NCBI RefSeq assembly: GCF_001556865.1
Contig: NZ_LSJY01000057.1
Coordinates: 1-19,884, forward strand
Length of the DNA stretch: 19,884 nt
Direction: 5' to 3'
Source: Sphingobium sp. CCH11-B1
GTDB lineage: Bacteria > Pseudomonadota > Alphaproteobacteria > Sphingomonadales > Sphingomonadaceae
The position numbers and the translations under genes were made by a program. The notes under the pieces are model-generated. The model had not been told where the DNA came from. It saw nothing but the letters and a program-made list of their open reading frames with translations, and did not search any database. The first letter of the stretch is position 1, and every line of letters begins with the position of its first letter. Below, one piece after another: positions 2,308 to 14,364 of the stretch.

Positions 2308-3609
2308 TTACCATCTGGCGGCGGTCGTGCCCCCGTCCGAAAGCAGGTTCATGAGGCGCGTCACCAGCGCCGTGAAGCGACCTTCGTCGAGCCGCGCGGC
2401 CGGATTGTTCCAGCTGGCGCTGATCGCGTACCAGCGGCCGTCCTGCCCCTGCGCCAACAGGTTGATCGCCATCACGCCCGGTTCGCTGCCGCCCTTGTAC
2501 CCCAGATAGCGCCAACGCTTCGCGTCCGCCGGGGGGATGCCGGGATTGACCGCCATGATCGGCAGCGCGTCGCCGCCATGGACGCGCAGCCAGTCCAGCA
2601 GCCCGATCATGTCGCGCGGGGAAGCGAACCATTCAGCCTCCCCGATCGCGGTCGGAACCTCCGCCACGCTGCCCACGTCCACCTGGCCGGCGGTCAGGCG
2701 AGCGGCTTCGTCCTTCAACAGCAGGCGGCGCTGATCGAGCGATGCGGCAGCATATCGGGCGAGCAGATCGCGATTGGCCGGCATCTTGAGCGCGAAGGTT
2801 TCGGCCGTGGTCAGGACGGGCATCGCCGATGCGGGGTCGGCATGGCCGGTGGCGGACAGCATGGCGTCCACCTTCGCCCGGCCGAGCGCCAGCAGCAGCG
2901 TATCGGCGGCGCTGTTGTCGCTTTCGGCGATCATCGCGGTGGCGAGGCTATGCAAGGTCATCGGCGCCTGGTCGGGCCATTCCGCCAGGCGGCCGGAAAA
3001 GCTCTTGGGGCCAAGCGGCATCACATCGGTCCAGTGCCTTTCCCCCGCCGCCGTGGCGCGGGCCGCTTCAGCGAGGATCAGCAGCTTGAAGCTGGACGCG
3101 ATCGCCATCCGCGCATTCGCGCGATGCGCCCGGATCAGGCTCGGCCCGCTGTCGTCCAGTCTCGCCACGGCGAAGGCCGTCGCGCCGGGGAGGGCCGCGA
3201 TCTCCGCCGCGACCTTGTCCGGCGTGTCGTTCATCGCCTTCGCGCCCACCACATGCAGTCCGACGACCGGATTGGGGGCCTCCGGCGCGACCACGAGGGA
3301 GAAGCCGATAGTGGCGCGCTCGTAGCGGATTTCCACCTGTCCCGCCGTGGGACTCGACCGGCTGACAGCCCCGACAGCGACGGGCCTGCCATGAGCGGCG
3401 CGCAATTCGGCGGCGACCACGCGCCAACGGTCGATCGGGACTGCGTCCAGAAACAGGGTGGAGAAGAAGTTTTCTTCACGCCCTGGCGCGGACAGGATGC
3501 CCAGCAATTGATCGGCACGCATCCGATAGGCCGGGTCGGACGCTGCGCGCGACGGGGACGGGAAGAGCGACATGGCCAGCAGGATCAGGACCACCGCCAC
3601 ATGCCTCAC
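2308..3609 (-). CDS. Exported serine hydrolase, class A beta-lactamase fold
   Basis: This 433-residue protein begins with a Sec signal peptide (residues 1-22, cut after SRA). An N-terminal domain (about 25-130) of unassigned type follows; its layout recalls LpqF-like proteins with an NTF2-like front domain. The C-terminal half carries the active-site motifs of class A beta-lactamases and related penicillin-interacting hydrolases: SSFK at 172-175 (nucleophile Ser172, Lys175), SDN at 230-232 and KGG at 372-374 in place of the usual KTG. All three are in order and correctly spaced, so the enzyme should be catalytically competent in the periplasm. The substrate is unknown; peptidoglycan-related or ester/amide hydrolysis is possible, and beta-lactam hydrolysis cannot be claimed. 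The start is a GTG that overlaps the parE stop (GTGA), implying translational coupling. No SD specific to this start is obvious. Confidence 0.9.
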   Translation of the reverse strand: MRHVAVVLILLAMSLFPSPSRAASDPAYRMRADQLLGILSAPGREENFFSTLFLDAVPIDRWRVVAAELRAAHGRPVAVGAVSRSSPTAGQVEIRYERATIGFSLVVAPEAPNPVVGLHVVGAKAMNDTPDKVAAEIAALPGATAFAVARLDDSGPSLIRAHRANARMAIASSFKLLILAEAARATAAGERHWTDVMPLGPKSFSGRLAEWPDQAPMTLHSLATAMIAESDNSAADTLLLALGRAKVDAMLSATGHADPASAMPVLTTAETFALKMPANRDLLARYAAASLDQRRLLLKDEAARLTAGQVDVGSVAEVPTAIGEAEWFASPRDMIGLLDWLRVHGGDALPIMAVNPGIPPADAKRWRYLGYKGGSEPGVMAINLLAQGQDGRWYAISASWNNPAARLDEGRFTALVTRLMNLLSDGGTTAARW

Positions 3610-11606: not shown

Positions 11607-12314
11607 ATGAGCCGCCGGAACGGCATCACAGGGAATATGGCGGTTCTGCTGGCTTGCGTCCTGCTGGGCGCTTGCGCCACGGTGGAGGACGCGCCGCGTG
11701 GAGAGGCCGCCTATGCCGCCATCCCGCCCGCGCCGGCGGTGGGGATGGAATATCGCATCGCGCCGGACGATGTGCTGCGCATCCAGGTCTATCACGAACC
11801 CGAACTTTCGCTGGAGGATGCGCAGGTCAGCGCCGCCGGCATGATCCGCATGCCGTGGATCGGCGACGTGTCGGTCGCCGGGCTCACCACGTCCGAAGCA
11901 TCGGACGTCATCGCCGGGCGGCTGGGCCAGCGCTACCTTGTTTCGCCCCAGGTCACGCTGTTCGTGAAGAAGGCGGTCAGCCGCCGGATCACCGTGGATG
12001 GGGAGGTGCGGGAGCCGGGGCTGTATCCGTTCGAAGGCCGCATCCTGCTGTCGCAGGCGGTCGCCATGGCCAAGGGGCCGACGCGGCTTGCCGGGCTGGA
12101 CCAGGTGGTCGTCGTGCGCTCCATGGATGGCCAAAGGCAGGCCGCGATGTTCGATCTGGGCGCGATCCGCAAGGGCGAAGCCGCCGACCCCGAAATCCTG
12201 CCGGGCGATCAGGTGATCGTCGGCCTTTCACGCGCCAGGGCGATCCTGGGCGGGGCGTTGCTGGCGATCCCGGCGCTGGCGACCGGCTTCATCGCGCTGG
12301 ACGGGGGGCGGTGA
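11607..12314 (+). CDS. Polysaccharide export outer-membrane lipoprotein (Wza/GumB-type)
   Basis: This 235-residue lipoprotein belongs to the polysaccharide biosynthesis/export family (Poly_export with SLBB). The signal peptide ends in a lipobox LGAC with lipidated Cys23. EYRIAPDDVLRIQVYHEPEL begins the periplasmic polysaccharide-export domain. ITVDGEVREPGLYPFEGRIL, with LSQAVAMAKGPT after it, forms an SLBB beta-grasp domain. A final hydrophobic stretch (GGALLAIPALATGFIAL) could be a membrane-spanning or barrel-lining segment. It is shorter than E. coli Wza (about 380 residues), as is usual in GumB-like members. The ATG at 11607 is preferred over an open start at 11541 because it begins the signal peptide. 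The stop overlaps the next start by one base (TGATG), tying it to the Wzc-type gene and so to an export channel spanning the envelope. Confidence 0.93.
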   Translation: MSRRNGITGNMAVLLACVLLGACATVEDAPRGEAAYAAIPPAPAVGMEYRIAPDDVLRIQVYHEPELSLEDAQVSAAGMIRMPWIGDVSVAGLTTSEASDVIAGRLGQRYLVSPQVTLFVKKAVSRRITVDGEVREPGLYPFEGRILLSQAVAMAKGPTRLAGLDQVVVVRSMDGQRQAAMFDLGAIRKGEAADPEILPGDQVIVGLSRARAILGGALLAIPALATGFIALDGGR

Positions 12315-12408
12315 TGGACCCGACCCTGTCAGACGCCGCGCGCTCCTACGGCTGGAACCGGTTGCTGGCCGACCGCGTACGCCATGCCGGATTCGTGCTG
12401 CGTCGCCA

Positions 12409-12454
12409 TCGCATCATCCTGTTTGTCACGCTGGCGCTCTGCCTGCTGGCCGGC
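12409..12454 (+). repeat. Left arm of a 46-bp perfect inverted repeat inside the Wzc-type gene
   Basis: This arm encodes residues 32-47 (HRIILFVTLALCLLAG), the first transmembrane helix. It is the native copy, since its reading is what the family requires. Its exact reverse complement lies at 12520-12565. The 65-bp spacer (12455-12519) encodes the normal continuation ALFILLSTPNYRATASVEVE. Confidence 0.97.
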
Positions 12455-12519
12455 GCGCTCTTCATCCTGCTGTCCACGCCCAATTATCGGGCGACGGCCT
12501 CCGTGGAAGTGGAGGACGT

Positions 12520-12565
12520 GCCGGCCAGCAGGCAGAGCGCCAGCGTGACAAACAGGATGATGCGA
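12520..12565 (-). repeat. Right arm: inverted copy of 12409-12454
   Basis: All 46 bases are the reverse complement of the left arm. The match ends at the A/T pair 12409/12565; the next base outside (12408/12566) and the innermost next base (12455/12519) both mismatch. On the forward strand it replaces conserved coding sequence. On the reverse strand it encodes the helix sequence RIILFVTLALCLLAG again. Confidence 0.97.
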
Positions 12566-12588
12566 AAAGCCGCGCCCTGGCCGAGGAT

Positions 12589-14364
12589 GTGGCGCGTTCG
12601 CTGGCGCTGGTCGGGACGCCGACCTTCTTCCGCGGCATGGGCGAATCGCGGCCGACGCAGGGCAAGGGCAGCCTGTCCCAGCGCCAGGTCGAGCAGGAGA
12701 GGGTGATCCAGCTGCTCCGCGACCGCCTGCAGGTGGAACTGCCGGGCAAATCGCGCGTGCTGCGCATCAGCTTCGACAGCGCCGACCCGATCCTGTCCGC
12801 CCGCGTCGCCAACGCCTATGCCGACAGCCTGATCCGGGCCGACCTGAAGCGCGGGTTCGATTCCGGGGTGCAGGCGCGCCGTTTCCTGCTGGGCGAACTG
12901 GATGGCGCGCGCAGCGACCTGGCGCGGGCCGAGCGCGATCTGGCGGTCTATGCGACCCGGAACGGCGCGCCAGAGCAGGAGAAGCAGGAGAGCACCAGCG
13001 AGAATGCGCCCCCAAGCGGCGTTCGCGAAAGGCTGGTGCAGCTGAACGGTTTCCGCGCGCAGGCCGTGGCGGAACGGATCGCCGCGCAGAAACGCTGGGA
13101 AAGCGCGCGGCGAGCCAGCGTCGATACCCTGCCCGAAGTGCTGGGCAACGGCGCCATGCAGCAGATCATGGCCGAACGCGCGCAGGCCCGCGCCGCAATC
13201 GCCGAGGAACGCCAGTTCCGCAAGGATGCTCATCCCGAAATGCGGGAGGCCCGCGCCCGGCTCGCGGCGCTCGACGATCAGGCGGATGCCATGGCGAACA
13301 GCATCCGCGCCTCCATGCGCGAACAATATGAGGTCGCGGTCAGGGGCGAGGAACAGATTGCGCGGGAAATCGCCGATCTGGAGCAACAGGCCAAGGTGGA
13401 GCAGGGCCGCGATGTCCAGCTGGGCATCATGCAGCGGTCGGTCGATACCTACAGGATGCTGCACGACAGCCTGCTGCAGCGCTATCGCGACATGGCCTCG
13501 CAGGCCGGGTTCCAGGCGGGGCGCATCCAGCCGCTCGATCGCGCAGCCGTGCCGGACGAACCTTTTTCGCCGCGCATCGGCATCATATTGCTGGTCGCGT
13601 CCTTGGGTGGGCTGGCGCTCGGCCTTGTGCTGGTGGTGTTGCGGCACATTTTTGACGACGCCGTCACCTCTGCCGACACGCTGGCCGAACGGGTCGACCT
13701 GCCGCTGCTTGGCGCTGTGCCGGTGACAGGTGACAGTCCGCAGCCGCCCGAAATCTTCACACCCATCGCCTCCTCGCTGCTGCTGGCGACCACCGGCGGC
13801 CTGCCGCGCTCGATCCTCGTCACCAGCGCGCAGGAAGGGGAGGGCAAGTCGCTGACCCTGCACGCCCTTTCGCTAGCTCTTGCCGGCCTTGGCAAATCGG
13901 TGCTGGTGCTGGACGCCGACATGCGCCGCCCGGTTCAGCATCGCCTGTTCCGGGCCACGCCCGGGCGTGGCATCGCCGAAGTCTTGACCGGGCAGGCGCG
14001 GGCGACCGACGCCATTCTGACGAGCGGCACGGCAGGCGTGTCGTTGCTGCCCTGCGCGGTGCTGCCGCCAAACCCGGCCGAATTGCTGGCGACGCCGGCG
14101 TTCGACGTGCTGCTGGCGGAAGTGGCGGGCAGCTACGATGTCGTGCTGATCGACGCGCCGCCCATATTGGGCCTCAACGATACGCTCCTGTTGGCGGAAA
14201 AGGCAGAGGCCAGCCTGCTGGTCGTCGAATGGGGACGCAACCATCATGGCGGGTTGCGCACGGCGGCGGAAAGGCTGCGGCGTTCGGGCACCGCCGTGAT
14301 CGGCGCGATCCTGACCAAGCAGCAGGGCCGGTCGCTGGATTATGACTATCACAGGGGAGGATAG
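12589..14364 (+). CDS. Intact downstream part of the Wzc-type protein (coiled coil, TM2, BY-kinase)
   Basis: This is the long open part of the disrupted gene, 591 residues from a GTG at 12589. That GTG is an internal valine of the original protein, not an evident true start, and it has no ribosome-binding site. Residues about 60-300 are Gln/Glu/Arg/Ala-rich coiled coil of the Wzz periplasmic region. PLDRAAVPDEPFSPR then precedes transmembrane helix 2 (IGIILLVASLGGLALGLVLV). A C-terminal bacterial tyrosine-kinase domain has Walker A SAQEGEGKS (Lys420), Walker A' VLVLDADMRRP (Asp442, Asp444) and Walker B VVLIDAPP (Asp522). The tail has only two tyrosines (YDY) near the end, fewer than the tyrosine cluster of E. 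coli Wzc. The kinase part looks fully functional and shows no decay. This argues that the upstream break is recent or artefactual. Confidence 0.8.
   Translation: MARSLALVGTPTFFRGMGESRPTQGKGSLSQRQVEQERVIQLLRDRLQVELPGKSRVLRISFDSADPILSARVANAYADSLIRADLKRGFDSGVQARRFLLGELDGARSDLARAERDLAVYATRNGAPEQEKQESTSENAPPSGVRERLVQLNGFRAQAVAERIAAQKRWESARRASVDTLPEVLGNGAMQQIMAERAQARAAIAEERQFRKDAHPEMREARARLAALDDQADAMANSIRASMREQYEVAVRGEEQIAREIADLEQQAKVEQGRDVQLGIMQRSVDTYRMLHDSLLQRYRDMASQAGFQAGRIQPLDRAAVPDEPFSPRIGIILLVASLGGLALGLVLVVLRHIFDDAVTSADTLAERVDLPLLGAVPVTGDSPQPPEIFTPIASSLLLATTGGLPRSILVTSAQEGEGKSLTLHALSLALAGLGKSVLVLDADMRRPVQHRLFRATPGRGIAEVLTGQARATDAILTSGTAGVSLLPCAVLPPNPAELLATPAFDVLLAEVAGSYDVVLIDAPPILGLNDTLLLAEKAEASLLVVEWGRNHHGGLRTAAERLRRSGTAVIGAILTKQQGRSLDYDYHRGG

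Follow-up and report, generated by a model that had tools for sequence, protein, structure and literature searches.

How does a gene come to hold a long, perfect and inverted copy of a part of itself, and was that copy made in a cell or in a tube? The question is raised by a stretch of 19,884 nucleotides from a contig of Sphingobium sp. CCH11-B1 (NZ_LSJY01000057.1), here called the window, in which the affected gene is a Sphingobium polysaccharide kinase of the Wzc/GumC type. The features of the locus are collected in Table 1.

Table 1. Coordinates of the inverted repeat, its junctions and the surrounding genes; positions are those of the window unless another locus is named.
Feature	Position	Strand	Description
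Left arm	12409..12454	+	Original DNA, encodes the kinase's first transmembrane helix; served as template for the right arm
Template-side annealing site	12449..12454	+	GCCGGC, self-complementary hexamer; predicted pairing with 12520-12525
Spacer	12455..12519	+	Original Wzz-domain coding sequence (...ATASVEVEDV); protein identical to P0001
Right arm	12520..12565	-	Inverted copy of the left arm; reverse complement at 46/46 positions
Fold-back junction	12520..12525	+	GCCGGC, hexamer identical to 12449-12454
Newly templated part of right arm	~12526-12564		39 nt replacing ~85 nt; P0001 has 28 other residues here
Second junction	12564..12565	+	1-2 nt in common: A, plus G provided that the Leu codon lost had G as its last base
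5' kinase remnant	12314..12706	+	Frame of 130 residues: 71 original ones including membrane helix 1, followed by a foreign or frame-shifted tail of 59 and a stop
3' kinase remnant	12565..14364	+	Other frame; GNVR and AAA_31 kinase domains
Polysaccharide export gene (Wza/GumB-type)	11607..12314	+	Intact, just upstream of the kinase; Pfam Poly_export and SLBB; start codon chosen by the analyst
Post-kinase hairpins of related loci	L012:6289-6361, L020:7786-7854, L008:7857-7924, L036:7844-7910, L026:7796-7885		

The two arms are exact reverse complements over all 46 positions and enclose a spacer of 65 nt, just as the original prediction had described them. Only about 1e-19 such pairs, with a spacer of up to 300 nt, are expected by chance in this window, which rules out a chance repeat, and the longest other perfect inverted match in the window measures 17 nt. 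In a set of 103 records (1.10 Mb, partly overlapping and including the window), 14 inverted repeats had perfect arms of at least 20 nt and a spacer of up to 300 nt; the longest arms were the 46 nt of the window, followed by 33 and 31 nt, both at one related locus (L012), and within this set and spacer limit no perfect arms above 33 nt were found besides those of the window. The hairpin of the window is predicted to be very stable (-83.5 kcal/mol as DNA, z -16).

Which arm is the original can be read from the best public match, P0001, a protein of 698 residues whose 90% cluster represents 4 sequences on 3 contigs. P0001 is 100% identical to the window over the 591 residues after the lesion, shares the same 71 residues before it and is intact across the site. 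The left arm had been taken for the original DNA, and this holds because the first membrane helix, RIILFVTLALCLLAG, stands unchanged in this intact protein, whose flanks match the window exactly; in the related loci, matches to the left arm occur in one orientation only, and the window alone has both. The right arm is likewise the inverted copy that it was thought to be, put in place of conserved Wzz-domain coding sequence: P0001 has GAAGVGSAQRAVAPGDIEALMQTELEVL at this place, in agreement with the homologues, and the 28 residues between VEVEDVPA and KSRALAED are represented in the window by inverted first-helix DNA, about 85 original nucleotides having been replaced by an inverted copy of about 39 nt. 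The flanking protein resumes with KSRALAEDVARS, whose coding sequence restarts at the arm's final base, 12565, as the original prediction had it.

From the ATG to the Lys codon, the gene measures 297 nt in P0001 and 251 nt in the window, a net loss of 46 nt. This loss equals the length of one arm (window 12409-12565), an equality that is probably a coincidence, as no mechanism demanding it was found. A consequence that had escaped the earlier description is a frameshift: the two halves of the gene lie in different frames, the N-terminal one stops at 12704-12706, and its product therefore ends after 130 residues. The Pfam Wzz match covers residues 28-73 in the window and runs to residue 111 in P0001, which scores above the TIGR01007 cut-off and in which, unlike in the window, a single open frame spans the Wzz, GNVR and kinase domains. 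The break would be expected to stop or alter the export of the polysaccharide concerned. That loss of slime was selected, as the original prediction suggested, is a conjecture. Among non-mucoid variants of Klebsiella, many with a broken wzc have been described, the cause being insertion sequences and small mutations in the available part of that study (PMC7590720).

The surroundings of the kinase include wecB and wecC, both above cut-off, and an ABC-permease-like gene below it. Further away, on the minus strand of the window at 2311-3609, lies a protein with a likeness to class A beta-lactamases; its score of 36 bits falls well short of the curated cut-off of 200, and it is perhaps another serine hydrolase. 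In five Sphingobium loci, the kinase gene is followed within about 100 nt by the start of a long hairpin, with perfect arms of 25-31 nt and a loop of 10-40 nt (Table 1); at the same place the window has no inverted repeat of at least 18 nt. In another genome of the genus (G036:C4:247859-249706), the kinase match is split in two, leaving about 65 bases of the query without a match in the middle, and this gap may be a variable linker.

Is the second arm an old feature of the gene, or is it confined to this sequence? The nearest genome with DNA compared is the Sphingobium MAG MCMED-G18 (G001, its locus being L001), at 93% protein and about 90% DNA identity; a search of 94 genus genomes centred on G001 returned no kinase DNA match above 89%, and 20 loci from its kinase matches went into the comparison. 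All 65 related loci examined by tblastn read through the site uninterrupted; these comprise L001-L042, the 42 closer ones among 79 (the other 37, L043-L079, being distant), and L080-L102, several of which come from the same genomes. The alignment with close homologues that had been proposed as a check thus placed the arm on 28 residues of the Wzz domain and found the same inverted arm in none of the 65 loci. Among the protein matches listed (120 of 581 found), 120 of 120 are intact at the site, 97 by a loose pattern and 23 by eye. The absence of the second arm from the 65 loci and these 120 of 581 proteins points to a private change or an artefact. A search with the broken N-terminal protein gave nine relatives, none of which carried the chimeric part; it may miss others, since the window's own broken protein is also absent from its matches.

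In public data, the neighbouring export protein occurs exactly in a 235-residue form on nine contigs and in a 225-residue form on two, and the longest contig with the exact protein has 383,329 bases, equal to the longest one behind P0001. Over 13 kb aligned to L001 (6780-19877), the lesion is the only frame-breaking coding change in a comparison that took in gaps of at least 2 nt, those of 1 nt not being listed. The other coding gaps of this size are one of 3 nt and a pair of 5 and 4 nt, in frame together, and three further gaps are intergenic, after the kinase. No relative of the window was found among viral contigs, and the matches in 19 plasmid records concern single genes, each at most 10% of the window, and so give no sign of a plasmid.

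The two junctions differ in the number of matching bases, with 6-7 nt at the first and 1-2 nt at the second, where 40 of 42 relatives have a Leu codon with G as its last base. At the first junction, 12520 and 12523 each hold the third base of a codon, and that they are original is inferred, not proven. The GTG CCG codons found there also occur in the nearest relative, L001; among the 42 relatives, GTG is present in 26 and CCG in 12, and GCCGGC stands at both places in four. The predicted pairing before the event comprises 6-7 exact nucleotides and three further inward pairs, one of them G-T. When the strand 12400-12526, which ends where copying starts, is folded, its 3' end is predicted to lie in a stem on GGCCGGCGCG (z -2.3, with 4 of 200 shuffles as good), and the strand shorter by one base, 12400-12525, gives z -1.8, with 10 of 200 shuffles as good; the predicted pre-event fold thus beats shuffled sequences only mildly. 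At least six matching bases at a random inverted junction with the same spacing were obtained in 0.3% of 200,000 draws. Inverted matches lying at most 150 nt upstream exist for 7.6% of window positions at 6 nt and for 2.5% at 7 nt, and with a 6-nt match at 7.6% of positions in this GC-rich window, a priming site is easily found.

Both junctions fit the fold-back or template-switch origin that was first proposed for the repeat, and we consider it fairly probable that the lesion is the scar of one fold-back templated event which broke the gene in a cell recently ancestral to those sequenced. Near 12525, the end of a strand that was either growing or broken would have bent back, with its terminal 6-7 bases (GCCGGC[C]) annealing to the same self-complementary stretch at 12448-12454. 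A polymerase would then have made a reverse copy of some 39 nt of first-helix DNA, after which the end would have been released and rejoined about 85 nt downstream by means of 1-2 matching bases, either through a polymerase switching back or through end joining at a break. This would leave a perfect inverted repeat of 46 nt and a gene of the wzc/gumC type that is 46 nt shorter on balance, frame-shifted and broken. The sequence comparisons show how the lesion is built, where the copy came from, what was lost (through P0001) and that the tested relatives lack it; the strand and direction of the event, its occurrence inside a cell and its effect on the polysaccharide are what we infer. Its two junctions, 39 nt apart and restoring the right strand, favour a cellular event without proving it.

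The alternative that survives best places the same fold-back copying in the tube, as a chimera of whole-genome amplification or library preparation that took over in the assembly at a place of thin coverage; an amplification chimera was already an alternative in the original prediction, and we hold this to be a real possibility, if short of probable. Of 475 chimeras from phi29 amplification, 406 (85%) were of the inverted type, mostly with less than 10 kb between the parts, and most were primed by matches of at least 2 bp, in the accessible text of that study (PMC1855051). Library end repair also yields inverted chimeric reads, some of them longer and with two complementary stretches, according to the part of the report at hand (PMC10908179). 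The lesion is known from one sequence only, and an intact protein with identical flanks is public, which is also the picture that a one-off artefact would give. Rearrangement junctions judged genuine in Salmonella showed end matches of no fewer than 7-9 nt at first screen and of 8-12 nt after verification, in the available portion of that work (PMC3411829); the 6-7 nt of the window lie at or below these values and speak mildly against a confident call. The window resembles the chimeras of multiple displacement amplification in its nearby inverted join, its priming by a short match and its intervening deletion, but those have one junction, and the text available mentions no switch back to the original strand (PMC1855051). 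Against the tube, amplification and library chimeras mainly have one inverted junction, as far as these two partial sources go (PMC1855051, PMC10908179), whereas the window returns to the right strand after 39 nt, and this would need two joins in one molecule. Nor does the window hold a second perfect inverted repeat exceeding 17 nt.

A pure assembly error, in which the assembler joined unrelated k-mers, is very improbable: contigs from metagenomes can be misassembled, but assemblers usually work with k-mers far longer than the 6-7 and 1-2 nt in common at the junctions. A functional reading of the repeat, as an invertible switch or as an RNA hairpin that regulates the kinase, might draw on the stability of the predicted hairpin but is rejected as more improbable still: no tested relative has the second arm, and the gene has lost its frame together with 28 conserved residues that inversion of the spacer would not restore.

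With the long skip on return and only 1-2 matching bases at the second join, end joining fits at least as well in our judgement. We put forward, tentatively and as a rather unlikely reading in its full form, that a double-strand break in this bacterium was repaired by a hybrid route of the type known from yeast, with fold-back priming, self-templated synthesis and joining by Ku and LigD; a 10-nt imperfect inverted match would have primed, about 39 nt would have been synthesised, Ku/LigD would have joined the ends and about 85 nt would have been lost. In the nearest relative, matches to Ku and LigD_N start about 1.4 kb apart on one strand (G001:C65:9339-11094). Among the 94 genus genomes, Ku is matched in 76 (one match being weak and broken) and LigD_N in 75, and each was matched in one of 14 control genomes; the genome of the window presumably has them as well. 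In the titles and abstract openings searched, which leave most subscription papers outside coverage, no report was found that dealt with this locus or that had bacterial end joining complete a fold-back insertion, and the available text of mycobacterial work on inverted repeats and end joining is without the terms 'fold-back' and 'template switch' (PMC3519483).

The lesion is an unusually clean case, both junctions being readable because the template, the copy, the lost protein segment and the intact counterpart are all known. If it is real, it shows one fold-back event disrupting a gene in a bacterium and, in the same stroke, generating an inverted repeat of 46 nt, and a perfect inverted repeat in a frame-shifted gene with intact relatives becomes a search pattern by which such events could be counted and the need for Ku/LigD probed. 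If the break-repair reading is true, the window would hold a natural trace of the yeast-type route in a bacterium, with end joining able to make long inverted repeats. If the lesion is not real, it provides a signature for the filtering of chimeric assemblies.

Similar events are known from other systems, each of them cited here from partly available texts. The quasipalindrome mutation of E. coli is alike in that a nascent strand templates itself at a hairpin and an inverted repeat is made perfect; in the reporter, an imperfect 18-bp repeat pre-exists and a 4-bp change is removed, whereas here a match of 6-10 nt would have grown to 46 nt, at the cost of about 85 nt (PMC7202029). That a single template-switch event can create a perfect stem is described in a paper on RNA hairpins (PMC8794818). 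Fold-back inversions at induced breaks in yeast have as their primer an imperfect inverted match of 10 nt that encloses a 41-nt loop, and their second join, by end joining, has 0-5 matching bases with a median of 2 (PMC11724301). In the window, the corresponding values are an imperfect match of about 10 nt, a loop of 59-65 nt, 39 nt copied and 1-2 nt at the second join, which lies within the 0-5 nt of yeast and follows a first junction of 6-7 nt whose third-position bases are probably original. The yeast insertions are mostly shorter than 14 bp, with a range to about 150, so the 39 nt of the window are long; the break was induced in yeast, while in the window both break and end joining are hypothetical (PMC11724301). 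The pattern is also that of great ape template switches, among which 3-2-1-4 is one of two majority orders in a four-point model (PMC7954356). As in the 3-2-1-4 cases, a nearby upstream reverse complement has been inserted, one perfect inverted repeat has arisen and the original strand has been resumed, the differences being that the window concerns a bacterial gene and that about 85 nt were skipped on return (PMC7954356). The reverse complement of a nearby source stands at the site with 46 of 46 positions matching, the ancestral state without the copy is seen in P0001 and in 65 of 65 loci, and the order runs from the source at 12409-12448 through the switch at about 12525 to the resumption at the Lys codon about 85 nt on. 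On the favoured reading, the event would be of an already known kind, the template switch of order 3-2-1-4.
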